From NCBI GenBank assembly GCA_950295325.1, contig OX485806.1, forward strand, positions 53,253,169-53,317,168: a DNA stretch of 64,000 bases. The letters run 5' to 3'. The notes beneath the pieces are model-generated. The model did not search any database and was not told the origin of the DNA. It saw only the letters and a list, made by a program, of their open reading frames with translations. Source of the stretch: Polytrichum commune. Its lineage: Eukaryota; Streptophyta; Polytrichopsida; Polytrichales; Polytrichaceae. The position numbers and the translations under genes are program-made. Below, piece after piece: positions 20,757 to 57,873 of this stretch (position 1 is its first letter; each line of letters begins with the position of its first letter).

Positions 20757-20759
20757 TAT

Positions 20760-28794: not shown

Positions 28795-29086
28795 TATGAC
28801 AAAACTGTTGAGTTGTCTATGAATCTATACTCCAATTTATGCAAATATTGTGGTGTCACGCAGTTGGCAATCATGTGTGCTTTCAATGTGTAGTGTTTTT
28901 AGAATAAGGCATTCGAATTGGCTGGAAGAGAAATTCCTCGATGTAGCTCGACTCAGTAGTCGTTGTTGACAGCATGTGTGTGCTTGTGCAGGAAAATGCG
29001 TTATCTCATAACCAAAGCCCAAGATGTGTAAATGAAGAGTCTGGACCAGTAGCCCGTGTAGTCAGCTTGTCTCGAAGTAGTCCAGC

Positions 29087-32000: not shown

Positions 32001-32930
32001 GGTTGTTCAATCGCAGAGCCTGCATGTGGTGTAGATTCGGTGAAGGCAGTAGCACTGGAAATGCTGAGATTTTCGTCAGAGTTGTTGAACCTTAAACTCT
32101 GTTAGCCGCGCGCAATCCAATTACATTGTTATACATTTCATGTGGCGTGTGATCCCAGAACTTGTATATGACAGATGTGGGGCATTGGCCATTGCAGAAT
32201 TTACGAAGAATTGTGGGAAGCACGGACCAGCGCTCGGGCGGGATTCCGGAGACTACCATCATTACAGGCACAACGATACAAGAGCATGTACGCATATGGG
32301 TATCACTTTCGAGTTAGGAGCGCTGAGGAGACCATTACTAAAACTTGCGACTCAGGAGTTGCTGCATTTTTCCGAAGGCCATGCCGTTCTGGGAGGCGCA
32401 GCGAGAATGTAGAGGATGCTAACTTGGAGTATATTGGCCAAATTTTAGAAATTGTGGAACTTAATTATGGACACCATTGCACCGTAATTTTTGTTTGTGA
32501 TTGGGTAAAGGCGAACTACAGGGGGAGGAACGCTACTGTGATAAAAGATGAGTGGGGTTTTACGGTAGCCAATTTCAACACGATGGTATCATATGGTTAC
32601 GAGTCTTTTGCTTTCCCTGTACATTGCAACCAAGTGTTTTTTTCCGATGAGGAGGACTCGCCAGGTTGGAAAGTGGTTTTGCGAACAGACGTTCGTGGGC
32701 GTCGAGTGGACAGCGAAATGGAAGAACAACATGAAATTCCGCTGTTTGCAATGGGAGTTGATTCTGATTATCAAGGTTTGCGCGCACCGGAGGAAGTGCC
32801 TAAAATCAATCCCGATCCACTCCCATCAGGTAGGAACATACGTATTAATGAGGTATTCAATGAGGTTGTAGAAGAGGAAGCTGTGGTATTTGATAGGGAC
32901 TTAGGGGAATCATCGGAGGAAGGTGAATGA
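29087..32930 (+). CDS. CACTA transposase, tnp2 family with DUF4216-like C-terminus
   Basis: Catalytic transposase of the element. Exons inferred: 29087-29275 (CACNRCRGARIKK, YGRDPYLVYPVM), 29395-30855, 30982-31880, and about 32176-32930. The second and third exons hold the tnp2 core: HTFLDALLAWL, the CCPDGHVLYEG...CPTCHQVRY cysteine pattern, RVARYFDVIRHLQRMF, LGLVGDGIIPY, WLLTKKFFLSLALLIPGP, RFTLRAMLIWTVNDFPAYG, GYKGCPLCGPETC, LPVRHVLDVMHCEKNL, SHDYHVLMQQILP, PFERYFKSMKGFVRN, QGYQVEEALGFITEYM. The last exon resembles DUF4216 (YGYHFRV, ILEIVELNYGHHCTVIFVCDWV, PGWKVVLRTD). All exons are open. The 5' end is uncertain because a further upstream exon is possible, as is the join to the last exon. 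The element could be autonomous. Confidence 0.88.
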
Positions 32931-37073: not shown

Positions 37074-40000
37074 TGTCGAGGTCACCTTCAAACCCTCAGC
37101 AAACTTAGACGGTGTAACCCGCTGCTGACCGGTTTACATGGACACTACACTTATCTAAATTAACTTTTGAAGGTGTTTCCTCTTGGATAAATCTTTAAGG
37201 AGAAAGTAGCCTAAGCTTTCAAGCTTATGTTCCCCGAAATCCTAATGTCGAGGTTAAGTGTTGTGAATATAAGGAGTGTTTTCGCAATCAATGTAATGGT
37301 ATCAAAACATTCTTCAATTTCATTTCCAATTCTAAATCCTCAATCAAAGTTCACAATCACATTACTTTGAGTGTTTTCCTTAACAATCCATTGCAATGCC
37401 TTTAAGGTGAAAGTTGGCTACTTGATGGTCTTCAAAGTCTTTTATTCTTGAATGATGGTTTGAAGATCTTCTTAATGTCTTCATTCTTCTAAAGTTCCCT
37501 TTTGTCTGGTTTTCCTTTGTATTCTCTACTCATGAGAGTTTAGTTCTTCATTCTTGAATATCTCTAAATTCCTAGGAAGGATCTTCTCTAATCTTCCTAT
37601 TCTCTTGAGTGCTTCGGTCTTGCATTCCTTACGCAATCTTCTTTGTCTTCACGATGAGCTTCGGATTTTGTCAATCTCTTAGCCTCTTCACTTTTGATAT
37701 CTTGACATCTCCTTAGACCCAAAAGGTATCTTAGATCTTGGTTAAAAAAAAAATTCGTTTAAACCTTTAGTCCTCAAAGGGCTTCAAACTTGCGGTCTTG
37801 GCCTCGGGCTTGCGGTCCTCTGGTCCCGAGGGCCCTCAGTCTCCAAATCTTGAAGAAAGCTTTTAATGTCTTCAAGTCTTTTCTTGTAGTCCTTGATTTC
37901 GTAATCTCTTGAAAAGACCTTCAGATCCTAAAGTCTTCTCGGTCCTCCAGTCTCATGGGCCCTCAGTCTTGCGGCCCTTTTAGCTTTCCATGTTCTCCCG
38001 GTCTTCAAAAGTCTTCAATCAAATCTTCAAATACTTCACAGGTCTTGAGACTTCGCTCCTATGGTCTCGTGGTCTCTCAGTACCTCAGGCCCTCAATCTT
38101 CAAGGTACACCCAAAAGGGATCTTCAAATCTCCAAGTCTTCGGATTCGTTATGAATCAATCTTCAAGTCTCGTAACTCGTCGTCCGGTTCCGCGGTCCTC
38201 CAGTCGCGGTCTCCAGTCCGCGGGCCTTCAGTATCGCGGGCTCTCAGTCTAAATTCGGTCTTCAAACCCGAAGGCGTTCGTCTTCGAGTATCTTCAAATG
38301 TCGCTAAGTCTTCGGTCTTCGTCTTCACGCCTTGCGGCCTCGTGGTCCCTCAGCCGCGGGCCTTCAATCGTCTTCAAGTTCGAGGATAATATTTCAATCC
38401 TTTAAGTCTTCAAGCTCGAAAAGATCTTCGATTCCTCAAGTAAAATCGCGAAGCTCCGGTTGTCGTCAAATCGCTCCCGATAATGCTCCAAATAGGTCTT
38501 CGTTAAAACGCTCCCGATAATGCTCCTCTTGACGCTCACGTTGGATTGTTGAAATGAATAATGAGGTGTTATAGGGGCCCGTAGTGCCCCTTTATATAGG
38601 TTTTGAAATCTTATAATTGGTTGAATCGGCGGTTAGGTGTGGCCCCTAATGCCAAATGTCTAATTAGGCTAATTTTAGTCTGAATTAAGGCTGCAGTCTA
38701 AATTTAGGTCTGTCACATCTATTTATAGAAACCACACGTGCTAAATATAGATGTTCATGAGAAGTGGATTGGTTGCAATTCCTTCTAATACCTAGATGTG
38801 CCTAGGTGTGTTCGGTTACCATCCATGAGTCATCCATTCCCAATTTCATCCTTCATTGCTTAGATAGTTAAGGCGGTTAATGTCATCCAAGGGATTTTCA
38901 TCCCTTGGCTTGGATATCTCTAGTTCTTCATCCACACCCTCTAATGAGATCATTGTTAGTGACTACGTGTTCACTAAAACAATTAGGTGTTACTATCCCT
39001 AGTCACTAATGCACTCCCTTCCTACTCAAAAACGGTAACTAGGTACCCTAATTCCTTCTACCTATTAATCCGGCCGTTCCCTAAGTACTAGGATGCGTTC
39101 CCGCCGACCTTGCATCCGTTCCCAGTGCTCTAAGTGTGTTCCCGGGTCACCTCCGTTCTCGGGCGTTCCCGAACCACCTTGGCGAGTTCCCGGTGAGCTC
39201 CCTTGTTCCCGAGCCGTCTTTGGCCACGTGGCCCTTCGTAGGTCGTTCTCCGTAGATACCCAACTCCGTATAACCGGCGTCCAGAGTCCCGGCCACTACT
39301 CGTCCCGGCCTTACGACTCCCCCCAGATACCCGGTTATTACCCCTGGCCTCCCTTGCTGCTTGCTCTCGTAAGCTGCCACCTGGCGTCTCTCGGCCTTCG
39401 CTCCTTCCTCTTTGTCTTCCGCCTGGTCTGTCTTCCGCTTGGGCCCTCAGCTCTCCTGGGCTCTCTTCCCATTCACAGCGCGAAGCTCCGTTCACGATCC
39501 TCTGTGTGCGTGATGCCCCGCTCCGCTACTGCTCCTTCCTTGTTACCCGAATGCTCGGAGGTGCCTTCTGTGGTGTACATTTTACCCCTCCTTCCGGAAA
39601 GAAGCATGTCCTCATGCTTCGTTGCCTCGGTGAGGGTGGTAAGGTTTGGGATCTGAAACCTGCATTCGCGGAATGGTGCCATGGTCGACGGTGCCGAACT
39701 GCCCCTTTGTGATCGTGGTTTGTTGTTCTTCCAGCGTCCGAGTTGCATACTCCTTAAGCTGGGGTATAGTGATGTTGGTTGAGTGCTCTGGGTGATGCTC
39801 CAGCAGCCACTGGTGTCGTCTTACCGCCTCGAAGCAGATCGTGGTGTCTTCTCTCCGCAGGGACTCTCTTGCATGTTGGAATGTTTCCTGGTTGTCGCGT
39901 AAAAGCTTAGCGATTGCAATCTTCTGGCCGTGGGTGTAGGGACGTAATGTGGGGAGAGGCTGGTTGTTGTTATGTTCCTTTGCATATGTTGCCTCGTGTC

Positions 40001-40315
40001 GTGCTAGAGAGGCTATGCTGCGGAGAATGTATCTCCGAATGTAGAAGGGGGGAGATCCCGTTACCACTTCGATAATGCCCAATGGTAACTTGAAATCTCC
40101 CATTGCCCACATGAACGCCAAGGTGTCCTTTGCTCTGGCGTTAGCGTGATCCCACAGCTTTTTGAACTGCGCTTGCTTCAATGTAAGTCCTCTCTTGAGT
40201 ATGGGTAGATCGCTGACCAATAGATCGATTACCCTGTATGTTTGGTAGTACTGCATTATAGATCTAAGGGGTGCAGTGTGTTCTAACAGTTTGGTATAGA
40301 CTTCGGCCCTTGGGT
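37074..40315 (-). repeat. 3' terminal repeat of the giant Ty3 element (shared portion)
   Basis: 3242 bp matching 54632-57873 at an offset of 17558. The only mismatch I noticed is near 37151 (C here, T in the other copy). It contains a TATA box, a block of degenerate CT-rich subrepeats (about 37790-38500) and the last 234 codons of the 926-residue ORF. The outer end begins TGTCGAGG on the plus strand, that is ...CCTCGACA in element sense. Confidence 0.92.
38591..38598 (-). promoter_or_regulatory. LTR TATA box (3' copy)
   Basis: In element sense the sequence reads CTATATAAAGGGGC, a strong TATA box; the second copy is at 56149-56156. Transcription in the 5' LTR would start roughly 30 bp downstream. 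That leaves about 1.5 kb of R-U5 and places the 926-residue ORF in U3. Confidence 0.7.
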
Positions 40316-42392
40316 GAATGCAGGCGTGTGGCAGTGCGAATTGGTCTGTGGGGATGCTTTGATGGAGTTGTTGCTGCAGGTCCTCCTTTTCTTGTTTAAC
40401 TACCTGTAGTTCTTGCTGGAGATCGTTGAGCAATTGGTTAGCCGCTCCCTCCGCGAGCGCATGGCGTTCAGCTCTGTCCAAAGGCTGGTTGGAGTCCTGG
40501 CCGAATTCGGAATCCAGCCTAGGGTTGGAAAGGGCTGCTTTTAATGCCCGATTTTCGGTTCGTAACCCGGTGATTTCTGCTCTCTCTCGTTGCTGAATTC
40601 TTTGTGCCTCCTTTACCTTCCGATCTCGGGTGTCCAAATGGGTTTGAAGTTCCTGGATCTGTTTTTGAAAAAAAGTAATCTTTTTATCCCTGTCCTCCAA
40701 CTGGTGTGACTGGGTCTCTTCCAGCTTGCGATTGTTCGCCAGCATTTCGGAATTTCTGTGGGTAAGGGTCTGGATCTCCTTTCTTGAGCTCTCCATCTCT
40801 TCCTCTTTTTCTGCTAGCTGTTGTTGCAGTTCCGCGGCTTCTTCCCCTTTTGCTTGCAGTTGTTGCATGTACGTCTTCTCCAATTGCTGAAATTTCAATA
40901 AGTCTTCCTGGTCCCTTTGAGTAACTGTTTGAAGTTCAGTCTGCAACCTGGTCGTTTGGTCCTCCCTTTCTGCCAACTGTGTCTGGGTTTCGAAGGAGTT
41001 CTCAATGTAGAGGTCTATAAGCTCCTCCTTGTCGGCCAGCTTCTCTTCCAGTCTTCCGATCTGCAAAACGAGAGAGTTGATGGTCTCTGTCTGTGGGGCT
41101 TCGGACTGGTTCTTCCCTGTTTTTGACCCTTCGTGCAGAATTGCCTCTCTCTGCACTTTGTGGAACTGGCGGTCCACATTACGTATCAAATTTGGTGGGG
41201 CTTTGCTTGTAAGGGTAGTCAGCAGATTTTCCAACCGTCTGTGGGCTTGAGTGATCTGCTGCACAAGGTTGGGTACATCATTCGGAACCTGCCAGGGCTC
41301 CTCAGTCTCGTACACAGTTGATTGGGGCGTGTCGGTTGTTTGAGAGGGCGGGGCTGGGGCAGCTTGTCCTACCTGGGATTTTTCCATCGGAGGCTCCACT
41401 ACCCTGAAGGTGCTTTGAAGTTTTGGAGAAGGTACCGGTGCATCTATGCACCTCTTCTTGTGAGGCTTGGAGGCACTAGAAGGGTTGGTCATATGAAACC
41501 CTGCCTCTGCCTCATGGAGGAGATTCATTACCCCAGCTGCTTTTAGAATTAGTGTGAGGTGAGGCCCAATAGCGGTCCTTTCCACCTTAACCGGGTTTTC
41601 TGAATGTTTTTGGTGGAGTTTCAGAATTTCGTCACGAAGTTCTTGGTGAAATTCTTCCACCCAATCAATGGTGTTGCCATTTAGAGCTGCTAGAATTAAT
41701 TCCGCAAAAGGTATGGAGATGTGGTTGTGTCCTGTTATATTGAGACAAAATAAAGAATTGAGGATTCTGAGAGGCTTCTTGGCACCTGGGTAGGTGCAAT
41801 CCGTCACCCTCACCGTCTCTTGTCCATCTGATGTTGTCCTGGGCGATGGAAATAATTCTGTGAGCTCCCATTGCTTGGTTGAGGCGACCTTTCGGGTTGT
41901 GAACTCAAAAATATCTCGCAATTGAGTTTTCCAGTTGGTTGCTAGTAATGGAATTACCTTGCCTTGCACCGTGGTTGTCATGGTGGATACCTCGAGGTTC
42001 GCCACTGCCTCCCGAACCAAAGCCTCATGCAACACTGTCCATGTAACCCTGTTTACAAAACCATCAAGATTGATTTGTTTGAGGAACTTGGCCTCCTCCA
42101 AGGTGAATTGATGGTGCCTAAGAACTGTATCCACCACGAAAATGTATCTTGCTGGCTGCTCCTCTCCCTGCTTCCTCTTCATTTTATCAGCGAAACCTGA
42201 CTCCTCAATGGTTTTCACTGCTCTGCACAATATCTCTTGGTAAACATGAAATTTGCACGACCTCGGGTACCACTGGGACTTACTCTTGCTCCAACACACG
42301 GAGGTGAAAGCCTGCAGACATGTGTTTTGCAAATCTCTCCAAAACACTCCCTGCTCATTTAATTTCGGCTTGACCTCATATAAGCTCTCCAT
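39612..42392 (-). CDS. 926-residue retrotransposon ORF of unknown function, with coiled coil
   Basis: I do not recognise a firm homologue. The frame is fully open. The N-terminal half (about 1-330) is globular; its order of segments (VREAVANLE...VQGKVIPLL, an ELILAALNG helix, then TAIGPHLTLILKAAGVMN) faintly recalls the plant 'putative transposon protein' domains found in Tat/Athila-type elements. That likeness is unverified. Residues about 330-430 are Pro/Ser-rich. Residues about 440-620 form a long Gln/Glu/Lys coiled coil (QLAEKEEEMESSRKEIQ and similar). The C-terminal 234 residues lie inside the terminal repeat, so they are also present at 57170-57873. It lies downstream of pol and in the same sense, the position of env or accessory ORFs in other Ty3 elements. 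No membrane segment or signal peptide suggests an envelope. Confidence 0.7.
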   Translation of the reverse strand: MESLYEVKPKLNEQGVFWRDLQNTCLQAFTSVCWSKSKSQWYPRSCKFHVYQEILCRAVKTIEESGFADKMKRKQGEEQPARYIFVVDTVLRHHQFTLEEAKFLKQINLDGFVNRVTWTVLHEALVREAVANLEVSTMTTTVQGKVIPLLATNWKTQLRDIFEFTTRKVASTKQWELTELFPSPRTTSDGQETVRVTDCTYPGAKKPLRILNSLFCLNITGHNHISIPFAELILAALNGNTIDWVEEFHQELRDEILKLHQKHSENPVKVERTAIGPHLTLILKAAGVMNLLHEAEAGFHMTNPSSASKPHKKRCIDAPVPSPKLQSTFRVVEPPMEKSQVGQAAPAPPSQTTDTPQSTVYETEEPWQVPNDVPNLVQQITQAHRRLENLLTTLTSKAPPNLIRNVDRQFHKVQREAILHEGSKTGKNQSEAPQTETINSLVLQIGRLEEKLADKEELIDLYIENSFETQTQLAEREDQTTRLQTELQTVTQRDQEDLLKFQQLEKTYMQQLQAKGEEAAELQQQLAEKEEEMESSRKEIQTLTHRNSEMLANNRKLEETQSHQLEDRDKKITFFQKQIQELQTHLDTRDRKVKEAQRIQQRERAEITGLRTENRALKAALSNPRLDSEFGQDSNQPLDRAERHALAEGAANQLLNDLQQELQVVKQEKEDLQQQLHQSIPTDQFALPHACIHPRAEVYTKLLEHTAPLRSIMQYYQTYRVIDLLVSDLPILKRGLTLKQAQFKKLWDHANARAKDTLAFMWAMGDFKLPLGIIEVVTGSPPFYIRRYILRSIASLARHEATYAKEHNNNQPLPTLRPYTHGQKIAIAKLLRDNQETFQHARESLRREDTTICFEAVRRHQWLLEHHPEHSTNITIPQLKEYATRTLEEQQTTITKGQFGTVDHGTIPRMQVSDPKPYHPHRGNEA

Positions 42393-43922: not shown

Positions 43923-46900
43923 TCATTTGTGAGTTGGTTCCCCCCCAGCTGGCTCCAAGTCAGGTAAGGCAGGGTAGGCATGGGTTGTATTCCTCATAGG
44001 TGTTGTGGTTCCCAAACTTTCTCCTAAACTTGATAGTAGTTCCCATTGGGATATGGTATGTAGGTTGGTTTCTTTTTCGTCCCTTTGGTCGTGCCTTAGG
44101 GGGTTTAAGGTATCTTTTGGTTGACCACTCTCTTGTTTTGAGGGATGTATGTGGTATACTTCTAGCATTACTCTATGCATTTCCAAATCTTCAGCATCTA
44201 AGATTTCTTGACTTTGGTAAGAAGTGGAACCAATATGTGAAATGATTTCCGTATTTGATTGAGAAGATGGGGTGATGGGAATTGGTGTAGTACTAGTCCC
44301 TTTGTATAAAGGATTTTGTTTTGCTCGTATCTCCGTTTCCAAAAAGTGGCGTGCTAAAATTTGTAAGGCATAAGCCTGAGTTGATTTGGGCTCTTGGTAT
44401 GGTTTTAGCTTGTTCATGTTGACTCGTCCCAAACGGTCCCCTTGTAGGGTGGTAACATCCACTGAACCATTATCATAGACTTGTTGAATTAAATAAGGTC
44501 CTGCCCATCGTATTTTGAACTTGCCCGGCCCGGGTATCTTATGGCGCAAGTGCCACAAGATTCGTTGACCGGGATAAAAACGTGTTTTGGGTGGAGTATT
44601 TTGCTCCCCATCTTCGTTGCTTCGAGAGTTTTGACTTTTCTCCATAGCTTGAGTAAGGTCCTCTTTTAGAGTGTCGTGTTTCTTAGCCTCCTTTTGGAGT
44701 GGCTTGGTTATCCCAAGGTCACAATGTTGACATTGTCTCTTTGCCCGGGGTTTGTCATGTCTTTCCTTTCGTAAGAGTTGCATATGTTTCATGTTTTCTT
44801 CAGCTTCATGTCTGGTCAAATCCATAGTTCTGAGTTGCTCCATTCTCTTTTCTAAAATGGGATGAAACTCTTGACTCCGCTTTTGATAAATATCGGGATG
44901 AAGATAAGCCATAGGTAACAAGGCTTCTGTCCCGAATACTAATGAAAATGGAGTGTGCTTGGTGGTAACCTTATAGGCTGTCCTATAGGCCCAAAGTGCT
45001 GCATGTAACTTGGTGTCCCAATCCGTTCGATTGGCGTTAACCATTTTAGTCAAAGCAATCTTAATTACCTTGTTGGTGCTCTCCGCTTGCCCATTGGCCT
45101 GTGGGTAGTAAGTGGTTGACTTCCGGTGTAAAATCATAAATTCTTGAGTGAGCACCTTGATGGTGTCATTAATAAAATGACTTCCTTGGTCGCTCACAAA
45201 CTCTAATGGACATCCAAATTTCGTAATTATTTCTTCAAAAAGGAATTTGGCTGTGGATTTAGCCGTGTTATCCTTTAAGGCTCTGGCTTCCACCCATTTG
45301 GTGGTGTAGTCCGTAGCCGTGATAATGTACCGATTCTTGGTACCTTTAGCTGGCGGGTTGACCGGGCCAATGAAATCCAAACCCCATTTCTGAAATACCT
45401 CAATGGGCATTGTGGGATGTAAGGGTTGGAGATTGGTTGAGATTTTTGGGCCAACCCTCTGACAGATGTCACATTGGGTGCAGTAAAGATGAACATCTCT
45501 CTTCATGGTGGGCCACCAGTACAAAGCCGTTAAGACCTTGTGTAAGGTGATATTGGCTGAGAAGTGTCCTCCAGCTATCCCCTCATGAGCTTCCGCAATG
45601 ATGGCTGTAGTTATCGGTCCAGCTACGCATATCCTTCGTATACCATCGGGCCCTTCTTTTATCAGAGTCCCGTTGTGGTTTAGCATGTATGGACGACTTC
45701 GTATGGCGATTTGTTGTCGTTGCGTGGTTGAGGCTTCCGTGGTCAGCCTCCCGTGGGTTAAATAATCGATGAAAGGTGTTCTCCAGTCCGGTTCTTCTTT
45801 GTCCTTGATCGTGACAGTTTTGCAGTCAACAACATGCTCCGGGGTTTCATTGGGCCAACAAACTCTACACTTCTTGCATAGATGGTCAATGTCTGGAGGA
45901 ATTGTGGGCCACCAATAAGGCCCTTGGGTGACTTGTAAAATCATTTCATCCATTGAAAGATGAGGGTACCGTTGATTGTGAATGGTTGTCAACCATTCGA
46001 TTCCTCTTTCTTGAGAGATGCACAGTCTCGTTTGCCCATTTGCAAAACTTCGCTTTAACTTTCCTTTCTTTAGAAAGTAATGAGGTAATTCCGTCCGTAA
46101 GGTACCCAACTCTTCATGAAAGGCGAAGTCGCTTAGTTCCATTGGGTTTTTGAGGTATTGAATGATTGGTTCTCTCCAATCATGTGTCTTCTGATTCTGG
46201 AGGAAGATAGTCCCGTAGTTCTCGATTTTAAGGCCTGACGTTGCAGTGATCTGACATGGTTTACATTCGTCAATTAAGTGGTTTATATCTGAAGAAATGG
46301 TGGGCCACCAATACGGGCCTTTGTGTACTTGTGCGAGTACTTCTTTTCTCGTTAGATGCGGTATTTGATATTCATGTATCCTCTTCACCCAATCCTTGGC
46401 GTCTTCTTTGGCCACGCACATCTTAACTTCCCCATTTGGTAATCGATATTTCAACCCATCTTCGGCTATGAAATACGTCTCGGTGTTAAGGCTGAGTAAT
46501 CCCAACTCTTCATGTGTACCAACATGGTTTAACTCCTCAAAGCTCTTTAGTCGTTGTGTGATTGGTTGTCTCCAATCTGGCTTAGGTGTTGGTTTTGGTG
46601 AAGATGAGTTTTGATTTTCCCTGGGGCATTCCTTCGGTGTCTCCGTTCCTCTGCAAGTTTTGCAGTATCTTAAATGGTTGCACACGTCATTTCCCCATGT
46701 CGGCCACCAGTACGCTCCTGTGGCCACGGCCTTCCATGTTTCTATGGCAGCCAAGTGGGGTTCGCTTTCCCCATGTACCTTGGCTAGGTACCTGGGAACT
46801 TGAGTCTCGGGGATACAAACTTGGTTACCTTTTCCTCCTTTGCGTATCCGTTGTAACGTGCCGTTGCTGAACACAAAGTACTTCTGGCTTTGTGTTACCG

Positions 46901-49900
46901 TCCTTTTTACCTCTGGTGGTAGGGTTTGGTCGAAGATCTCCTTGCATGTTAGGTACTCCATATAAGGACGTCTCCAATCTGCAGCAACCCCTCTTAGTAG
47001 GTCTTTCCGGTCCAGAGGTGATGGTGTCTTCGGGTCTTTTGAAAACTCTGCTTGGTTGCTGCATACCGTACATTTCCGACGGCATAAGCTGTTAATGTCG
47101 GCTCCGCATGTGGGCCACCAATATGGCCCAAACATGATTAGGTGCCACATTATCTCTTCGCTAAGATGTTCCCCGGATTCTGTAACATGTAATTCTTGCA
47201 GGTATTTGTTGATTTCACGTCCCGCAATACATATCTTCACGTCTCCATCCGAGAATATCCTCTTTAGTTTTCCTTCTTCAATGAAATATTTTTGGCTTTG
47301 TCGAGTTATCCTTTTGTATTGATTCTTCGAGATGTGGGGTCCTTTCAAGTACCCGTATGTGAGGTATTCTATTAACAACCTCCTCCAATCCTTGTTGTCA
47401 GGTGTTTGTACGATGACGGACCCGCAAATTATGTTATGGAGCGGGCCTCGAAATCTTCTTCGACAAGACGGGCAGTCGTACATAATGTAGATTTGTATGT
47501 CACACAGCCCCATCGTGGGCCACCACCGATTCCCTTGCAAGCATCGAAGCCAAGTTTGTTGGTCGTCTAAGTGTCTCTGCTGGTGTACGTGCATTTTCCC
47601 TATCCAATGCTTTATTTGGTAACCAGCGATGCAAATTTTAGCCATTCCATTCTTCTCCAGTTTTCGAAGTTTTCCCTTTTCCAAAGTGAAAATTTCGCTC
47701 TCTCGTATGGTTTCCCGCTGCCCTCTTTGAGTTTCCATGTCCATTTTGAGTCTTCCATGCGCCAGATATTCGACTAGAGGTGTTCTCCAATCGTTAAAAG
47801 TTTCTTTGTATGGTATAATGTCCGCCCCGTTACCCGGTTCCGAAGAGCTTGCTTCTGTGTGTAACTCTTCTCCATGCTCTTCGCACTCGATGCATAGTGT
47901 GATGAGTAGTGAGACATCTTCCGTGATAGTTGGCCACCAATACGGCCCTTGTAGAACTAATTTCCTGGTGGCATTTACTGAAAGATGTTGATTTTCTCGT
48001 ATATGGAGGGTCTTGATGTAACTCCTCACATATCTTCCAGGCATACATTTCTTGGTAATGCCGTTATGAAACATGCGATGTAACTCCCCTTCAATGAGTA
48101 TGAAAAATTTGCTTCGGTACACTACCAATTTTCTTTCTTCTTTGGGTAGGGAACTCACCCAGGGGGTTCCGTGTGTTAGACAAGTTAGGTATTGGACATA
48201 TGGTGTTGTCCAATCCGATTCTGCTTTTCCTGTCATGTCTTCTTGCGCTTCCAAAGGTTGTACAGGGAGTGGATCGTCGTCGTCCTCTGAATCTTGTGGG
48301 GTAATATTCCCGGTTTCGTTTCCTTGGTCAACAACCTTACATACCGGACATTCTTGACAGTATTCCAGTACGTCTCTTCGTCGAGTAGGCCACCAATATG
48401 GGGTGCGTAGTATGTAATGCCATGTTGAAGTTAGATTGTAGTGTATCCCATCTTGCTCATGGGCTTCGCTTATGACTTCTTCAATGATGTCCCCGGCTAT
48501 ACACTCATGTATCTTGCCGGAGATACTGACTCGCTTGAGCTTTGCGTCGTCTAGGACGAAGGGCTCACTCAGTTGCCTGATCTTGTTTTGTTCTCGTGGG
48601 GTAGCTAGAGCTGACAACAATCTTCCGTGGGTAAGGTACTCAATGAAAGGTGCTCGCCAGTCTTCGAATGGTTGCACGTGAACCATGAATAAACTTGCGT
48701 CCGGAAACTGGTCTTGTACCCCTGAGGGGTCTTCTCCGCTTTCTATCCTTGATAGGTGGTCAGCCATTACATGGCTCCTACCAGGCTTATAAACTACTTC
48801 AAAATCGTACTCTTGAAGTAACAGCATCCATCTCGCGATTCGCCCGGACACCACTGGTCGATTGACCAAGTATAGCAGGGCTTGATGGTCCACGTAGAAC
48901 ACGAAATGGTTTGCTAGCAAATAGTGTCTGAATTTGCCCACTGAGTAGATCATTGCTAGGGCTTCACGCTCCGTCGTACTATAGTTCTTCTCCGCACTGT
49001 TTAAGAGTCGACTAGCGTAATGAATTGGGGAATCTCTATCCCTGTGTATGTTCTGAGCCAAAACGGCTCCAATTGCGATGTTCGAGGCATCGCAGTGTAC
49101 GTGGAACTCCATGGTCCAATTGGGAGTTACCAAAATGGGTGTAGTTGTTAACATTTTCTTCACTTCTTCGAAGGCCTCTTGACAAGATTTTGTCCAAATG
49201 TACTTCTCTCCTTTCTTGAGTAGTAAGTACAAAGGCCGAGTGATCTCAGCATACATCCATATGAATTTCCGATGGTATGTAGCTTGGCCTAGAAAACTCC
49301 GAATTCCTCGTACGGTGGTTGGTGGAGGTAATCCTTTGATAACTTCCACCTTCTTCGGATCCACCAACAATCCTTCTTTGCATACCACGTGCCCTAAGAG
49401 TCTCCCTGAATTAACGCAGAAAAAACACTTCTCTGGGTTCAGGCTTACTCCATTTTCGCGGCACTTAACGAGACATTTTTCCAAATGCTCAATGTGGTCT
49501 TCTTTGGTTCCATAAACTGTAAAATCATCTAAAAACACCTTCATGAATTTGTCGAGGTAGTCGGCAAATATCTTCATCATGCCCCTTTGGAAGGTGGCTG
49601 GTGCACACATTAATCCAAAGGGCATCACCCTGTACGCAAACGCTCCGTATTCGGTGATGAAAGACGTCTTCAGCTGATCTTCTAAGGCGATCATGATTTG
49701 GTTGTAGCCACTGTACCCGTCCATTAGCGTGTACATTTCGTGTCCTGCAACCGCTTCCAAGATAGATTCTGTAAATGGTAATGGAAAAGGGTCCACCTTC
49801 GTGACTGCATTCAGTTTTCGATAGTCGACACACACTCGCAGTTTCCCATTCTTTTTGGGTACAATCACGATTGGTGACAGCCATTCGGTTTTATCCACGG

Positions 49901-52568
49901 GATATATGAATCCTGCCTCCAAGTACTTGTCTATCTCTTCTTTCACCTTGGCTGCGTAATTGGGGTTCATCCTATAACGCATTTGTCGTATCGGCTTGGC
50001 TTCCGGCTGTAGCTCAATCTTATGCTCGCACACATGAGGGGGTATTCCCTTCATGTCCTTGTAGGTGAAAGCAAACACATCCTTGAAATTTAGAAGTAGC
50101 TCTTTCACTTTTGCTTCGTATTCTCCCAAGTCTTTCGCTATCTTGACTAACTTAGGCTCTTCCGGAGTTCCTAAGTTTAAAGTCTTTACTAAGTCTTCAT
50201 CTTCAACTGTCCACCCCGCTATCTTCTTCCCTTTGACGGCTTCTGAGGCAGGGGTGCGATCAATCTCTATCTCTCCTTCTTTTGCTTTGTAAAACTGGGA
50301 GGGATATACCGGTTTCTCTTCCATAGCTTCTTGTTCTTTCTTCGTTGTTTTTCTTGACCGAGGTTTCTCGGTTTCACCTTTTCGTGATCCAGGTTTTCCT
50401 GGCTCGTGGTGAGTATCAATCTTCACTGTGTTGCAGCTTGGTTCTCTTAGCTTCTTCAAGCTTTTCAAATCAAAGTTCCCCATGGGTAGCAGTTCTGGGA
50501 AAGCTTCATAGACTATCGCTTCTTCTTCATCGGACAATCCCATTTCCCAGTCATAGTCTTCCCAATTTAAGGGTCTCTTGGCCGGTGGTAGTGCCGGTGT
50601 TCGTTGGGTGCTTATCTCCACCTTGTTTCCACCCTGCGTTAAGGTCAATTTGTTGAGGGGCCAATCATGTTGTGCTTGGGCCTCTTTTAACCATGGCCTC
50701 CCTAGCAAAAGGGAGTAACTGTCTTCGGTACTCACCATGTCTATGACGGTGAGTGTCGTTCCAATCACGATGCCGCCGACATCCAGTCGTACGTCTCGGA
50801 TGATTCCCTTGGGCATGACCTTTCTTTGGTCAGCCATTTTTATAGTGAATGGTGCAGGCTCTATCTTCTTGAGCCCCAATTTCCTTCTCAATGTATCAGT
50901 GATGATGTTCACTCCTGATCCACCATCAATCAAAGCATCCGGAATCCTCTTGTTCTTCACAATCACTGATATCATGGGCATTTCTTCGTCGAATGCCTTT
51001 GCTGTCACTTGGTATGTAGGTGTCGGTTTCTCAGACGTTCCTTCTTGGCTGGTAAGGGCAGCCATTACCCGTTTCCTACAATAGGGGGCTATCTCTAGTA
51101 GTTGCCCTATTGAAATGTTGGCTCTTGTGTGATTCATCACATTCTCTAGAATCTCATCTACCCTTGCCTGGGTAGTCTTTGGGGCGCCTCCTTTCTCGGG
51201 GCTCCGTTCTTTAGGCTTCCTTGCCTCTTCTTCTTCTGGGTACCAAGGTGCGAACTCCTCTGGCGTGGGTAGAGCTTCGCCCTGTTCCTCCTGTATGTAT
51301 TTGATAGTTTTACTCACCTCCCGGTGGACTTCCATATCAGCTTTCCATTCCTCGCTGTTGGCTCCTATCGGCCTTTCATTTTTCTCCTTATCATCAACGT
51401 GTTCATCTTGCTCGAACACCTCCTCTTTGTCTTCATCGGGGTGTGCGTCCGGCTCGCGCACAACATCTCTCTCTTCATCAGAGTTCTCATCTCTTTGTTG
51501 GTGGTCTTCCTGCTCCTCAGAGCTGCCACTGCTCGAATTGTCGTCATCATCACTATCGTCACTTTCGCTATCTTCCTTGCCTCCCTCGGCCGCAGCCCGT
51601 TGGACTCTTGTCATCACACACACAGCAGGGGACACCACGTTGGCTCCCACGGCTGGCTTAGCATTCCTGAATCCACTCAACTCCTGTTGGTGTTTGATAA
51701 AGTGCGGACAGTCCGTCTTCCGGTGTCCCTTTTGATGACAGTAAAAACACTCGTCGGGGTTGCCATCTCGCTGAGGTACGCCAATGTACCCAGTTCTCGG
51801 CGCTGCCTTGGTGTTGGTACTGTCCATCAAGCTTCGGTTGTATTCATGATTGATAGGTCCTCTGGGACCTCCTCGGTAGGGGTATCCATCTTCCCTCCGG
51901 TAATCTTGGCTCTTGTAGGGGTAGTAGCCTTCCCTCCTGAAGTCATCTCTGTAGTTGTCGTTGGGCCTAAAATAGGGCCGTTCATCTCTGCGATATTCAT
52001 TTCCCCGGTAGGGGCCTCCCGCCTCCCGCCGGTAATCGCCTTCCCTGAATGGGGACCTTTCATCTCTTCTGAATTCTATCCTTGGTTCAAACCGAACCCT
52101 TCTGTCATTCGTTTCTCGCCTAGGAGTGATCGCTCCTGGCCTTCGATTGGATTGGGGTTGTATTTGATTTACCCCATATCTTCTATCCCGGGGTCTCCGA
52201 GATTCGTGCCTTTCATAAACACACTCACTTGTGTTATGAGTAAGGCTATTACAATTTGTACATTGTTTCATTTGACACTCTTGCACGTAGTGCCCTTCAT
52301 TTCGGCATCGCCGACAAATTATGCCCGTTCTGAATTTCCGGCTTCCCAAAGCCAGTCCTTCTATCTCTTCTCTGAGAGTCTTGATGTCATCTTTGGTTGA
52401 GTTATTTCTTCTACTCTTTGTCTTCTTTTTCTTCTTTCGCCGTTCTTCCTCTGAGTCATCACTTGACTCCTCACTGTCACTCTCATCGAGGAACCTCCCT
52501 TTCCTCATCTGTCCTAATTCCAACTTCCGTGCCGATGCTTTTGCCTCATCCAAGTCATCGGTCGGCAT
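43923..52568 (-). CDS. pol: Ty3/gypsy Pol with eight integrase zinc-binding modules, 2881 aa
   Basis: One open frame holding, in order: three CCHC knuckles (CRRCRNEGHYVQEC, CTNCNSLTHNTSEC near residues 85-115; CFYCHQKGHRKTDC near 275), acidic low-complexity (about 320-400), aspartic protease (ALIDGGSGVNI, near 549), reverse transcriptase (about 860-1060, catalytic FLDD near 1013), RNase H (HCDASNIAIGAVL, near 1150-1240), then eight repeats of a module ending in H-x5/6-H...C-x2-C (about 1302-2373). The integrase core follows (WGLDFIGPV, VSDQGSHF, QAESTNK; D,D-35-E, about 2395-2500), then a GPY-type C-terminal domain (FKIRWAGPYLIQQ, near 2688) and a Ser/Thr-rich tail. A usual Ty3 Pol is about half this length. 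The frame starts here at the first Met after an in-frame TAG that separates it from gag. All catalytic residues I looked for are present, so the protein looks active. Confidence 0.95.
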   Translation of the reverse strand: MPTDDLDEAKASARKLELGQMRKGRFLDESDSEESSDDSEEERRKKKKKTKSRRNNSTKDDIKTLREEIEGLALGSRKFRTGIICRRCRNEGHYVQECQMKQCTNCNSLTHNTSECVYERHESRRPRDRRYGVNQIQPQSNRRPGAITPRRETNDRRVRFEPRIEFRRDERSPFREGDYRREAGGPYRGNEYRRDERPYFRPNDNYRDDFRREGYYPYKSQDYRREDGYPYRGGPRGPINHEYNRSLMDSTNTKAAPRTGYIGVPQRDGNPDECFYCHQKGHRKTDCPHFIKHQQELSGFRNAKPAVGANVVSPAVCVMTRVQRAAAEGGKEDSESDDSDDDDNSSSGSSEEQEDHQQRDENSDEERDVVREPDAHPDEDKEEVFEQDEHVDDKEKNERPIGANSEEWKADMEVHREVSKTIKYIQEEQGEALPTPEEFAPWYPEEEEARKPKERSPEKGGAPKTTQARVDEILENVMNHTRANISIGQLLEIAPYCRKRVMAALTSQEGTSEKPTPTYQVTAKAFDEEMPMISVIVKNKRIPDALIDGGSGVNIITDTLRRKLGLKKIEPAPFTIKMADQRKVMPKGIIRDVRLDVGGIVIGTTLTVIDMVSTEDSYSLLLGRPWLKEAQAQHDWPLNKLTLTQGGNKVEISTQRTPALPPAKRPLNWEDYDWEMGLSDEEEAIVYEAFPELLPMGNFDLKSLKKLREPSCNTVKIDTHHEPGKPGSRKGETEKPRSRKTTKKEQEAMEEKPVYPSQFYKAKEGEIEIDRTPASEAVKGKKIAGWTVEDEDLVKTLNLGTPEEPKLVKIAKDLGEYEAKVKELLLNFKDVFAFTYKDMKGIPPHVCEHKIELQPEAKPIRQMRYRMNPNYAAKVKEEIDKYLEAGFIYPVDKTEWLSPIVIVPKKNGKLRVCVDYRKLNAVTKVDPFPLPFTESILEAVAGHEMYTLMDGYSGYNQIMIALEDQLKTSFITEYGAFAYRVMPFGLMCAPATFQRGMMKIFADYLDKFMKVFLDDFTVYGTKEDHIEHLEKCLVKCRENGVSLNPEKCFFCVNSGRLLGHVVCKEGLLVDPKKVEVIKGLPPPTTVRGIRSFLGQATYHRKFIWMYAEITRPLYLLLKKGEKYIWTKSCQEAFEEVKKMLTTTPILVTPNWTMEFHVHCDASNIAIGAVLAQNIHRDRDSPIHYASRLLNSAEKNYSTTEREALAMIYSVGKFRHYLLANHFVFYVDHQALLYLVNRPVVSGRIARWMLLLQEYDFEVVYKPGRSHVMADHLSRIESGEDPSGVQDQFPDASLFMVHVQPFEDWRAPFIEYLTHGRLLSALATPREQNKIRQLSEPFVLDDAKLKRVSISGKIHECIAGDIIEEVISEAHEQDGIHYNLTSTWHYILRTPYWWPTRRRDVLEYCQECPVCKVVDQGNETGNITPQDSEDDDDPLPVQPLEAQEDMTGKAESDWTTPYVQYLTCLTHGTPWVSSLPKEERKLVVYRSKFFILIEGELHRMFHNGITKKCMPGRYVRSYIKTLHIRENQHLSVNATRKLVLQGPYWWPTITEDVSLLITLCIECEEHGEELHTEASSSEPGNGADIIPYKETFNDWRTPLVEYLAHGRLKMDMETQRGQRETIRESEIFTLEKGKLRKLEKNGMAKICIAGYQIKHWIGKMHVHQQRHLDDQQTWLRCLQGNRWWPTMGLCDIQIYIMYDCPSCRRRFRGPLHNIICGSVIVQTPDNKDWRRLLIEYLTYGYLKGPHISKNQYKRITRQSQKYFIEEGKLKRIFSDGDVKICIAGREINKYLQELHVTESGEHLSEEIMWHLIMFGPYWWPTCGADINSLCRRKCTVCSNQAEFSKDPKTPSPLDRKDLLRGVAADWRRPYMEYLTCKEIFDQTLPPEVKRTVTQSQKYFVFSNGTLQRIRKGGKGNQVCIPETQVPRYLAKVHGESEPHLAAIETWKAVATGAYWWPTWGNDVCNHLRYCKTCRGTETPKECPRENQNSSSPKPTPKPDWRQPITQRLKSFEELNHVGTHEELGLLSLNTETYFIAEDGLKYRLPNGEVKMCVAKEDAKDWVKRIHEYQIPHLTRKEVLAQVHKGPYWWPTISSDINHLIDECKPCQITATSGLKIENYGTIFLQNQKTHDWREPIIQYLKNPMELSDFAFHEELGTLRTELPHYFLKKGKLKRSFANGQTRLCISQERGIEWLTTIHNQRYPHLSMDEMILQVTQGPYWWPTIPPDIDHLCKKCRVCWPNETPEHVVDCKTVTIKDKEEPDWRTPFIDYLTHGRLTTEASTTQRQQIAIRSRPYMLNHNGTLIKEGPDGIRRICVAGPITTAIIAEAHEGIAGGHFSANITLHKVLTALYWWPTMKRDVHLYCTQCDICQRVGPKISTNLQPLHPTMPIEVFQKWGLDFIGPVNPPAKGTKNRYIITATDYTTKWVEARALKDNTAKSTAKFLFEEIITKFGCPLEFVSDQGSHFINDTIKVLTQEFMILHRKSTTYYPQANGQAESTNKVIKIALTKMVNANRTDWDTKLHAALWAYRTAYKVTTKHTPFSLVFGTEALLPMAYLHPDIYQKRSQEFHPILEKRMEQLRTMDLTRHEAEENMKHMQLLRKERHDKPRAKRQCQHCDLGITKPLQKEAKKHDTLKEDLTQAMEKSQNSRSNEDGEQNTPPKTRFYPGQRILWHLRHKIPGPGKFKIRWAGPYLIQQVYDNGSVDVTTLQGDRLGRVNMNKLKPYQEPKSTQAYALQILARHFLETEIRAKQNPLYKGTSTTPIPITPSSQSNTEIISHIGSTSYQSQEILDAEDLEMHRVMLEVYHIHPSKQESGQPKDTLNPLRHDQRDEKETNLHTISQWELLSSLGESLGTTTPMRNTTHAYPALPDLEPAGGEPTHK
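43936..43950 (-). promoter_or_regulatory. Candidate polypurine tract
   Basis: In element sense AGCTGGGGGGGAACC, a run of seven G followed by AA, inside the last codons of pol. It is the strongest purine tract downstream of integrase and a plausible plus-strand primer. If so, the 3' LTR begins close to 43924 and is far longer than the repeat preserved at both ends. Confidence 0.5.
45450..48665 (-). repeat. Eight-fold tandem array of integrase H2C2 modules
   Basis: Module boundaries (plus coordinates, in order of translation): 48663-48330, 48217-47869, 47797-47445, 47395-47050, 46983-46630, 46582-46235, 46189-45838, 45795-45450. The start-to-start spacing is 393-446 bp. Each begins DW(R/T)xP...YL and continues with a G-x-L-x-R...G...C-(I/V/M) strand. 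It then has H-x5/6-H, the motif (G/R/T/A)-x-(Y/R)-WWPT, and C-x2-C (CPVC, CIEC, CPSC, CTVC, CKTC, CKPC, CRVC, CDIC). The modules differ strongly in sequence, so the array is old, yet no zinc ligand is lost. The last module is directly joined to the integrase core and most resembles a normal integrase N-terminal domain. Confidence 0.95.
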
Positions 52569-52592
52569 TAAATCAATGTGCTTAGCGTATTC

Positions 52593-53768
52593 CTATTTCA
52601 ACCCATTAAGGAACCATGCTTTCTTGAATTGATTACTAGGTTGAGGGTGAATCTTTGATGATTCCACCATAACCCTTTCATAAAATTTCTCGACTGTCTC
52701 GTCTTTCTTTTGCTTGAGGGAGCCTAAGCTTTCAATGACTTCTCCCTCTGATTTCTTTGATCTGAATCTCATAAGGAAGGCAGTTCCTAAACTTGGCCAG
52801 TCCGGAAAATGGTTTGGGCCAAATTGGGAGTACCATTCCAAGGCTCGTTTCTTTAAGGTAACAGGGAATAGTTGTAATTTGATCGCGTCTGTGTCTTCTT
52901 GATTTGCGAGACACACGTTGTTGAACTCTTGCATATACGTATCGGGATCCGTCTTACCCTTGTAGGTTGGTAAGGGAACCTTCGTTCTTCGGGGTTGTGC
53001 GGCCATGTTGACTGGGTTGGGTAAGTTGCTTCCAACACCAGGTGGGTTGTTGCTCTTGGCTGGTGGTGGGCTGACTCCGGTGTTAATTCCAAGGTTTTGG
53101 AATTGCTTAAGTTTCTCTTCAAACTTCCTCCGTAGGTCGTCAAACTCTTCTTGACTGATGGGTCTTTTTACTCCTTGGTCCGTGTTATCTTGTGTGCTTT
53201 CTCCGGAGAAGCCGGAGTCTTCAAAGCTAAATTGTTCTTCAAAATTTCTTTTCAATTTCTCCCAACTCCTTGGGTTGAAAAGATTTTCCTCAGCCGTGTT
53301 TCCTTGATGGGTGTTGTCCTGCGCTTTATCTACTGGGGTATGTGTACCCGTGTTTTTACCTGTACCTTTCGTTCTCAACACATAGGTTCCAAGAGGGGTG
53401 CCTATTATCAGATCATCCTCATCTTCCTCGTTTTCTCCCTGATTCAAGTTCTCTTCATCCAAGTCTTCATGTCCTTTGCTTGTCTCACCATTACCTCCTC
53501 CTTCACTTTGACTTCTATGGTGGCTGGGCTTAGGGGTGTGGGAACCTACTGCCGGTGGTTCAGAGGCGTATCGGCTCTCTTCACTTCCTGTAGTTCGTTG
53601 TCTTGTACGCCTAGCGTACCTCTCTTCTCTTTCTCTCTTGAGTTGTTCAGTCCGCCTTATGCGGTCTTCTCTGGAATGCATGCGCTCCACATGCTTCTTC
53701 TCTGCCTCCTGTTCTCTAGGAGTTGGTGATGTACTTCTCGTACTAGATGTATCCTCATGATCAACCAT
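52593..53768 (-). CDS. gag: Ty3/gypsy Gag (capsid region), 391 aa
   Basis: N-terminal 230 residues are charged and low-complexity (Arg/Glu-rich, then Gly/Asn/Asp-rich). Residues about 255-391 carry the Retrotrans_gag capsid signature: YKGKTDPDTYMQEF, IKLQLFPVTLKKRALEWYSQF, W..L...FLMRFRSKKS, LGSLKQKKDETVEKFYERV, KKAWFLNGLK. The frame ends in TAG at 52595-52593. The next codons continue in the same frame straight into pol (EYAKHIDLMPTDD), where the nucleocapsid zinc knuckles lie. The stop therefore splits capsid from nucleocapsid. It could be a readthrough signal or a recent nonsense mutation in this copy. Confidence 0.93.
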   Translation of the reverse strand: MVDHEDTSSTRSTSPTPREQEAEKKHVERMHSREDRIRRTEQLKREREERYARRTRQRTTGSEESRYASEPPAVGSHTPKPSHHRSQSEGGGNGETSKGHEDLDEENLNQGENEEDEDDLIIGTPLGTYVLRTKGTGKNTGTHTPVDKAQDNTHQGNTAEENLFNPRSWEKLKRNFEEQFSFEDSGFSGESTQDNTDQGVKRPISQEEFDDLRRKFEEKLKQFQNLGINTGVSPPPAKSNNPPGVGSNLPNPVNMAAQPRRTKVPLPTYKGKTDPDTYMQEFNNVCLANQEDTDAIKLQLFPVTLKKRALEWYSQFGPNHFPDWPSLGTAFLMRFRSKKSEGEVIESLGSLKQKKDETVEKFYERVMVESSKIHPQPSNQFKKAWFLNGLK

Positions 53769-54631: not shown

Positions 54632-57600
54632 TGTCGAGGTCACCTTCAAACCCTCAGCAAACTTAGACGGTGTAACCCGCTGCTGACCGGTTTACATGGA
54701 CACTACATTTATCTAAATTAACTTTTGAAGGTGTTTCCTCTTGGATAAATCTTTAAGGAGAAAGTAGCCTAAGCTTTCAAGCTTATGTTCCCCGAAATCC
54801 TAATGTCGAGGTTAAGTGTTGTGAATATAAGGAGTGTTTTCGCAATCAATGTAATGGTATCAAAACATTCTTCAATTTCATTTCCAATTCTAAATCCTCA
54901 ATCAAAGTTCACAATCACATTACTTTGAGTGTTTTCCTTAACAATCCATTGCAATGCCTTTAAGGTGAAAGTTGGCTACTTGATGGTCTTCAAAGTCTTT
55001 TATTCTTGAATGATGGTTTGAAGATCTTCTTAATGTCTTCATTCTTCTAAAGTTCCCTTTTGTCTGGTTTTCCTTTGTATTCTCTACTCATGAGAGTTTA
55101 GTTCTTCATTCTTGAATATCTCTAAATTCCTAGGAAGGATCTTCTCTAATCTTCCTATTCTCTTGAGTGCTTCGGTCTTGCATTCCTTACGCAATCTTCT
55201 TTGTCTTCACGATGAGCTTCGGATTTTGTCAATCTCTTAGCCTCTTCACTTTTGATATCTTGACATCTCCTTAGACCCAAAAGGTATCTTAGATCTTGGT
55301 TAAAAAAAAAATTCGTTTAAACCTTTAGTCCTCAAAGGGCTTCAAACTTGCGGTCTTGGCCTCGGGCTTGCGGTCCTCTGGTCCCGAGGGCCCTCAGTCT
55401 CCAAATCTTGAAGAAAGCTTTTAATGTCTTCAAGTCTTTTCTTGTAGTCCTTGATTTCGTAATCTCTTGAAAAGACCTTCAGATCCTAAAGTCTTCTCGG
55501 TCCTCCAGTCTCATGGGCCCTCAGTCTTGCGGCCCTTTTAGCTTTCCATGTTCTCCCGGTCTTCAAAAGTCTTCAATCAAATCTTCAAATACTTCACAGG
55601 TCTTGAGACTTCGCTCCTATGGTCTCGTGGTCTCTCAGTACCTCAGGCCCTCAATCTTCAAGGTACACCCAAAAGGGATCTTCAAATCTCCAAGTCTTCG
55701 GATTCGTTATGAATCAATCTTCAAGTCTCGTAACTCGTCGTCCGGTTCCGCGGTCCTCCAGTCGCGGTCTCCAGTCCGCGGGCCTTCAGTATCGCGGGCT
55801 CTCAGTCTAAATTCGGTCTTCAAACCCGAAGGCGTTCGTCTTCGAGTATCTTCAAATGTCGCTAAGTCTTCGGTCTTCGTCTTCACGCCTTGCGGCCTCG
55901 TGGTCCCTCAGCCGCGGGCCTTCAATCGTCTTCAAGTTCGAGGATAATATTTCAATCCTTTAAGTCTTCAAGCTCGAAAAGATCTTCGATTCCTCAAGTA
56001 AAATCGCGAAGCTCCGGTTGTCGTCAAATCGCTCCCGATAATGCTCCAAATAGGTCTTCGTTAAAACGCTCCCGATAATGCTCCTCTTGACGCTCACGTT
56101 GGATTGTTGAAATGAATAATGAGGTGTTATAGGGGCCCGTAGTGCCCCTTTATATAGGTTTTGAAATCTTATAATTGGTTGAATCGGCGGTTAGGTGTGG
56201 CCCCTAATGCCAAATGTCTAATTAGGCTAATTTTAGTCTGAATTAAGGCTGCAGTCTAAATTTAGGTCTGTCACATCTATTTATAGAAACCACACGTGCT
56301 AAATATAGATGTTCATGAGAAGTGGATTGGTTGCAATTCCTTCTAATACCTAGATGTGCCTAGGTGTGTTCGGTTACCATCCATGAGTCATCCATTCCCA
56401 ATTTCATCCTTCATTGCTTAGATAGTTAAGGCGGTTAATGTCATCCAAGGGATTTTCATCCCTTGGCTTGGATATCTCTAGTTCTTCATCCACACCCTCT
56501 AATGAGATCATTGTTAGTGACTACGTGTTCACTAAAACAATTAGGTGTTACTATCCCTAGTCACTAATGCACTCCCTTCCTACTCAAAAACGGTAACTAG
56601 GTACCCTAATTCCTTCTACCTATTAATCCGGCCGTTCCCTAAGTACTAGGATGCGTTCCCGCCGACCTTGCATCCGTTCCCAGTGCTCTAAGTGTGTTCC
56701 CGGGTCACCTCCGTTCTCGGGCGTTCCCGAACCACCTTGGCGAGTTCCCGGTGAGCTCCCTTGTTCCCGAGCCGTCTTTGGCCACGTGGCCCTTCGTAGG
56801 TCGTTCTCCGTAGATACCCAACTCCGTATAACCGGCGTCCAGAGTCCCGGCCACTACTCGTCCCGGCCTTACGACTCCCCCCAGATACCCGGTTATTACC
56901 CCTGGCCTCCCTTGCTGCTTGCTCTCGTAAGCTGCCACCTGGCGTCTCTCGGCCTTCGCTCCTTCCTCTTTGTCTTCCGCCTGGTCTGTCTTCCGCTTGG
57001 GCCCTCAGCTCTCCTGGGCTCTCTTCCCATTCACAGCGCGAAGCTCCGTTCACGATCCTCTGTGTGCGTGATGCCCCGCTCCGCTACTGCTCCTTCCTTG
57101 TTACCCGAATGCTCGGAGGTGCCTTCTGTGGTGTACATTTTACCCCTCCTTCCGGAAAGAAGCATGTCCTCATGCTTCGTTGCCTCGGTGAGGGTGGTAA
57201 GGTTTGGGATCTGAAACCTGCATTCGCGGAATGGTGCCATGGTCGACGGTGCCGAACTGCCCCTTTGTGATCGTGGTTTGTTGTTCTTCCAGCGTCCGAG
57301 TTGCATACTCCTTAAGCTGGGGTATAGTGATGTTGGTTGAGTGCTCTGGGTGATGCTCCAGCAGCCACTGGTGTCGTCTTACCGCCTCGAAGCAGATCGT
57401 GGTGTCTTCTCTCCGCAGGGACTCTCTTGCATGTTGGAATGTTTCCTGGTTGTCGCGTAAAAGCTTAGCGATTGCAATCTTCTGGCCGTGGGTGTAGGGA
57501 CGTAATGTGGGGAGAGGCTGGTTGTTGTTATGTTCCTTTGCATATGTTGCCTCGTGTCGTGCTAGAGAGGCTATGCTGCGGAGAATGTATCTCCGAATGT

Positions 57601-57873
57601 AGAAGGGGGGAGATCCCGTTACCACTTCGATAATGCCCAATGGTAACTTGAAATCTCCCATTGCCCACATGAACGCCAAGGTGTCCTTTGCTCTGGCGTT
57701 AGCGTGATCCCACAGCTTTTTGAACTGCGCTTGCTTCAATGTAAGTCCTCTCTTGAGTATGGGTAGATCGCTGACCAATAGATCGATTACCCTGTATGTT
57801 TGGTAGTACTGCATTATAGATCTAAGGGGTGCAGTGTGTTCTAACAGTTTGGTATAGACTTCGGCCCTTGGGT
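54632..57873 (-). repeat. 5' terminal repeat of the giant Ty3 element, probably truncated
   Basis: Near-identical partner of 37074-40315. Its inner edge next to the primer-binding site is canonical. Its outer edge (57873, ...TTGGGT) lacks the complementary TG/CA terminus and target duplication, and beyond it the sequence is unrelated to the flank at 37073. The outer part of U3 is therefore probably missing. The TATA box at 56149-56156 is retained. Confidence 0.88.

Follow-up and report, generated by a model that had tools for sequence, protein, structure and literature searches.

The window analysed here is a stretch of 64,000 nucleotides from Polytrichum commune (contig OX485806.1 of assembly GCA_950295325.1, positions 53,253,169 to 53,317,168), and on its minus strand lies a Ty3-type element with terminal direct repeats, a gag open reading frame (ORF), a pol ORF and a third ORF. 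The usual view gives retroviral and Ty3 integrases a single zinc-binding N-terminal domain (NTD), and the contribution of the adjoining domain called NED is poorly known. In this element, where a retroviral-type integrase would have a single N-terminal domain, eight were counted, and they stand in tandem (modules M1-M8) at pol residues 1300-2372, between an ordinary RNase H and an ordinary integrase core. We hold it as nearly certain that the family has such an architecture, namely an array of 5-11 NED-NTD modules, and that selection acts on this array.

As a first-pass annotation of this DNA had claimed, the eight modules lie in one uninterrupted pol frame of 2881 residues, and the coordinates it gave for them, 45450..48665, proved accurate to within a few bases. 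It was also right on the module size of about 115 residues and on the motifs, but the repeated unit is the whole NED plus NTD and not the H2C2 finger alone. The WWPT motif recurs eight times (residues 1392, 1544, 1682, 1817, 1954, 2087, 2219 and 2351), the pitch is 132-152 residues and the linkers between modules have 16-34 residues. Each module scores 137.7-148.8 bits against a profile made from these same eight modules, and while module-to-module identity in the window copy is 22-41%, 15 columns are invariant in all eight, including the two His and two Cys of the ligand set, WWPT, the leading DW and an additional Cys, and all 32 zinc-ligand residues are present. The Pfam H2C2 model PF17921 matches the whole protein with 156.8 bits in seven stretches; of the isolated modules, five pass its curated cut-off of 25.5 bits (M1 41.1, M2 29.5, M5 28.8, M6 29.4, and M8, where an N-terminal domain with the HHCC ligand pattern is present, 57.4), M4 (23.7) and M7 (22.4) fall slightly under it, and M3 alone has no match to this model. 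A chance motif was considered and rejected, for 2000 shuffles never reached eight patterns: H-x5/6-H-x24-36-C-x2-C was observed eight times against a shuffle mean of 0.055 and a maximum of 3, and the H-H-C-C pattern with WWPT inside eight times against 0. Moreover, structures predicted for modules 4 and 6 match the NED-NTD of foamy-virus and Ty3 integrases, and only retroviral and Ty3 integrases are named among the matches listed by VIA-align and Foldseek. Each module is thus, on a fold predicted for these two, a whole NED-NTD unit. As modules 2-5 are basic (isoelectric point, pI, 8.4-9.2), modules 7 and 8 near 8, and modules 1 and 6 acidic, the positions may differ in job. The features are collected in Table 1.

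Table 1. Modules of the array and other features of the element, in window coordinates
Feature	Position	Strand	Remarks
Module 1 (NED-NTD)	48327..48671	-	residues 1300-1414
Module 2	47871..48224	-	residues 1449-1566
Module 3	47457..47801	-	residues 1590-1704; alone, no Pfam match
Module 4	47049..47399	-	residues 1724-1840; modelled, NED-NTD fold
Module 5	46641..46985	-	residues 1862-1976
Module 6	46242..46586	-	residues 1995-2109; modelled, NED-NTD fold; zinc-less in some relatives
Module 7	45846..46193	-	residues 2126-2241
Module 8	45453..45797	-	residues 2258-2372; by tree, the ordinary integrase NED-NTD
RNase H	48807..49196	-	residues 1125-1254; Pfam
Integrase core (rve)	45102..45395	-	residues 2392-2489; D2398, D2460, E2496
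SH3/GPY-like C-terminal domain	44397..44582	-	residues 2663-2724; by eye from sequence
Reverse transcriptase	49386..49862	-	residues 903-1061; Pfam
Aspartic protease region	50685..50966	-	residues 535-628; below both curated Pfam cut-offs; DGGSG motif at 548
pol ORF	43923..52568	-	2881 aa, uninterrupted
gag ORF	52593..53768	-	391 aa; Retrotrans_gag 34.6 bits
Third ORF	39612..42392	-	926 aa; weak sub-threshold coiled-coil Pfam matches; extends into 3' repeat
Terminal direct repeat, 5' long terminal repeat (LTR) side	54632..57873	-	5' edge atypical for LTR start
Terminal direct repeat, 3' LTR side	37074..40315	-	ends CTCGACA

The array is by no means confined to the window. The genome searched comprises 407.8 Mb in 64 contigs, seven of them of 42-78 Mb, and a query of modules 3-4 found at least 33 places, the window copy included, with 74-100% identity over at least 212 of 244 residues, and further matches down to about 29-36% identity; this search scored the best candidates only, and its counts are a lower bound. 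Nine copies could be read from RNase H to core, three each with 5 modules (L041, L044, L045), 8 modules (the window copy, L043, L046) and 11 modules (L039, L040, L042), so the array length is not fixed at eight in the family. None of these nine, which were picked for long frames, has fewer than five modules, and the copies of the element read in this genome are not of the single-module kind. Another 30 shorter loci (L009-L038, L009 being the window copy) each end within or before the last module: RNase H stands directly before an eight-module run in 18 of them (L038 counts nine through a frameshift), eight start inside a longer array and show ten modules, two (L015, L028) have eight modules without an RNase H match, and two stop early, L018 after six modules and L031 after five. 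The eight loci with the best Pfam H2C2 hits in the genome (L001-L008) have one module match each, with RNase H or core similarity of 25-39%. As to the placement of copies, L020 and L021 (G000:C5:27130477 and G000:C5:27147697) have equal scores, lie on one strand 17.2 kb apart and are perhaps a tandem element sharing an LTR; L024 and L025 (G000:C5:13223365 and G000:C5:13234680) are about 11 kb from each other, point in opposite directions and share a frameshift in module 4.

A tree built from 73 modules places the last one of each array class (5, 8 and 11) among the modules that stand singly in other plant integrases (support 99), which identifies it, as far as a tree can, as the ordinary integrase N-terminal domain; in the window copy this is module 8. 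Module 1 is common to all three classes (support 99), and the 11-array is an 8-array with the block M1-M3 doubled. Trees of M1, M2 and M3 (support 100, 100 and 96) place the second block in the window copy, L043, L019 and L020, and the first block in L036, L038 and L046, of which L036 and L046 are one copy. Since the window-type and the L046-type arrays keep different blocks, eight-module arrays arose at least twice, most simply through the loss of either block from an 11-type ancestor, and recombination between copies would give the same pattern. The copies are also mosaic, because the synonymous divergence (dS) between L036 and the window copy is 0.01-0.13 in M4, M7 and M8 and exceeds 1 in M1 to M3.

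The ratio of nonsynonymous to synonymous divergence (dN/dS), pooled over comparisons of the window copy with nine others (NG86), is 0.079, 0.142, 0.093, 0.139, 0.123, 0.170, 0.140 and 0.050 for M1 to M8, and all eight positions of the array are under purifying selection. Between the window copy and L043 it is 0.10 for M2-M7, 0.04 for M8, 0.27 for the linkers and 0.02 for the core, with an RNase H dN of 0.05 at saturated dS; in the module comparisons dS is often above 1. Together with the tree, these values bear out the earlier claim that the array is old and held by selection. Likewise the zinc ligands proved far better conserved than other residues, their columns being kept at 0.961-0.992 against 0.477 for the mean column in a first count that dropped incomplete rows, and a recount found HHCC in 203 of 234 modules from 32 distinct loci.

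Outside this genome, relatives were sought by reverse transcriptase (RT; best 120 of 1883 examined) and by a query from RNase H to module 5 (best 120 of 796 examined). Ten of the 120 RT relatives stand at 56-60% identity, namely nine unlabelled entries and the liverwort Riccia sorocarpa, the only named one. The Riccia match taken by itself makes a bryophyte host likely, and the lycophyte host implied at first found no confirmation. Eight of the ten (P0070, P0071, P0081, P0088, P0102, P0110, P0113, P0114) have one module each, Riccia sorocarpa (P0111) has a partial one and P0115 has two, so that the closest RT relatives among these 120 include the single-module elements, as against eight modules in the window. 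The second query returned one module in 93 of its 120, two in seven, three in one, four in four, seven in one and none in 14. Six of them are ENA fragments on contigs of 3-18 kb that hold parts of the array with its order unchanged, and their species could be the one analysed here: P0122 holds M1-M7 in order at 60-86% identity, the first and last cut at the fragment ends, P0123 three modules, P0124, P0125 and P0126 four each, and P0129 four of the five-module type. These came from this shorter query, one that draws shorter candidates; a protein search with pol region 1440-2260 gave none among 2756 candidates at E <= 0.001. In viral contigs scanned with P0115, three stretches matched a pattern and none was confirmed.

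A tandem NED-NTD between RNase H and core is shared with the window element by two-module integrases, found in the fern Adiantum nelumboides (P0132, P0141, P0142) and in unlabelled entries (P0115, P0128, P0130, P0131, P0133). The HHCC pattern occurs in both modules of seven of these eight; P0142, whose second module is incomplete, gave none and was left out of the tree. There the first copies group with support 100, the second copies with 97 and the two as mutual sisters with 96, all apart from array modules 1-7, which argues that the NED-NTD was duplicated at least twice. These separate clades led us to reject a shared origin with the two-module form of the fern.

As for the rest of the element, gag followed by a pol in the order protease, RT, RNase H and integrase is of Ty3/gypsy type, the protease being recognised only by a weak Pfam match and the DGGSG motif. 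The core has its D,D35,E residues (rve 38.4 bits), and the C-terminal domain, a GPY-like stretch seen by eye only, had no Pfam match in the whole-protein scan. The gag and pol ORFs share one frame with a single TAG stop between them (window 52569-52595), and some other copies have open frames of 3264-3716 aa, a length that may suffice for gag too. The third ORF is placed where some plant elements have env-like ORFs. The terminal repeats are 3242 bp each with one mismatch between them, as fits the very young element that had been claimed, but the 5' edge of the repeat is odd: it falls within the third ORF (40315, 57873), begins with ACCC rather than TG and has no purine tract ahead of it, and two other copies have sequence of about 69% identity running on past it. 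Those two copies share the 3' end CTCGACA with the window copy, with differing flanks. No target-site duplication was found, as the flanks at the repeat edges do not match, and the 5' repeat may contain the end of a copy that once lay beside it. Nearby, window 18961-32930 holds Transposase_21 with DUF4218 and DUF4216, which we take to be CACTA-like, as well as pieces of a Ptta/En/Spm transposase and of a copia-type RT.

How such an integrase might work can be proposed as follows. The N-terminal NED-NTD unit of a plant Ty3-type integrase was amplified into an ordered array, the length of which changes by a three-module block. The last module, the core and the C-terminal domain would build the usual intasome in the manner of Ty3 and foamy virus, with the seven extra modules hanging from it on their linkers as a flexible multivalent arm. 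This arm would most likely hold the element's own nucleic acid, either subterminal LTR cDNA or RNA, thereby extending the role of the single NED in Ty3 and foamy virus. At some positions the contacts may be with host proteins instead, and some positions have decayed. Among the explanations considered, a nucleic-acid arm formed by the seven extra modules ranks first, though our preference for it is tentative and stays short of even odds.

Several points weigh against it. Modules 1 and 6 are acidic (pI 5.7 and 6.3), and modules 2-7 are less constrained than the core in the L043 comparison. The survival of all 32 ligands, claimed at first sight, is true of the window copy but not of the family: among 32 distinct loci with 30 module 6 rows, ten (L016, L021, L022, L029, L032, L034, L037, L040, L042, L043) have lost ligands of module 6, namely the His pair and more, and all three 5-arrays (L041, L044, L045) have a third module that lacks ligands. 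In these module 6 copies Y and P replace the two His; these third modules have no CxxC, which P0129 keeps there. The misses are non-random, being concentrated in these two positions. Pairs of zinc-less module 6 have dN/dS of 0.31-0.33 (four pairs) against 0.09-0.11 for module 7 in three of the same pairs; thus constraint follows the zinc site, and a module that loses the site is relaxed but stays in the array. For the third module of the 5-arrays, poor in ligands, three pairs gave 0.09-0.25, which does not demonstrate relaxation. Not every module is needed, since three can go or come and some positions lose their ligands. Moreover, protease cutting may part the array from the core, and the TFIIIC binding reported for the same NED in the accessible part of PMC8632968 fits host targeting equally well.

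Such targeting comes second and is on balance unlikely: integration would be steered by extra modules bound to host chromatin or transcription factors, with a partner of its own for each position. It agrees with the reported TFIIIC interaction of the Ty3 NED and with the separate identities of the positions, for same-position identity across 8- and 11-module copies is mostly above 60% (53-59% in a few rows), far from the 22-41% between positions. Against it, host contact in the Ty3 structure, as given in the same part of PMC8632968, is mainly through the C-terminal region of an outer subunit. A broader idea, less likely than not, is that of a modular integrase in which every position has turned into a recognition domain of its own, with a partner surface conserved over a long time. 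The array would be re-cut by three-module blocks, a few positions would be zinc-less variants, and LTR ends, RNA or host chromatin would be read through an arm of variable length that has no counterpart among the integrases found in the searches made. A third and improbable explanation is a neutral ratchet, in which recombination adds NED-NTD copies and selection mostly asks for folding and harmlessness. The gain and loss of block M1-M3 fit it, and the zinc-less module 6 and third module speak for it at those positions, but dN/dS is low at all eight positions at a dS often above 1, ligand-bearing modules stay distinct, and no end-to-end copy falls below five modules. Still less probable is that the element's protease cuts the linkers and frees the modules to act as a nucleic-acid chaperone or decoy outside the integrase: the linkers are short and the least constrained part, but the strict array order beside the core in nine of nine end-to-end copies tells against it. 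An assembly or annotation artefact, in favour of which nothing was found, was rejected with practical certainty, as far as sequence allows, given modules diverged beyond what repeat mis-assembly can produce, the many genomic copies and the public fragments in the same order.

Altogether, the NED-NTD was multiplied in two separate plant lineages and kept by selection over divergences with dS often above 1, and the array points to an integrase whose binding arm may be unusually long. Because natural integrases of 2, 5, 8 and 11 modules coexist, the role of the NED-NTD becomes testable by counting, with the natural zinc-loss variants as built-in controls. The family also illustrates how a retroelement protein can grow by block recombination while its modules keep their identity.

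In comparison with known systems, no tandem integrase N-terminal array is described in the literature searched by title and abstract opening (preprints and most subscription journals were outside reach), and within that literature a retroviral-type integrase with an N-terminal NED-NTD array has not been described previously. The plant non-chromovirus Ty3 lineages OTA, Phygy and Selgy of REXdb have, in the accessible part of PMC6317226, a non-chromovirus-like pol as the window element does, and its long repeats and extra ORF recall most OTA elements; this likeness is by description, not lineage placement, and the words zinc and H2C2 are absent from that paper's main text. For the foamy-virus NED, the accessible part of PMC3738965 reports no role in in vitro activity, yet an essential one in complexing viral DNA. 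Module 8 and the core match Ty3 integrase (PDB 7q5b) and prototype foamy virus integrase (3l2q, 4e7k) with E of 5.5e-15 and 2.5e-26, and both systems share the D,D35,E core and a likeness to the NED-NTD fold predicted for modules 4 and 6. They differ in that each of them, by the domain list in the part of PMC8632968 at hand, has one NED-NTD against eight here.

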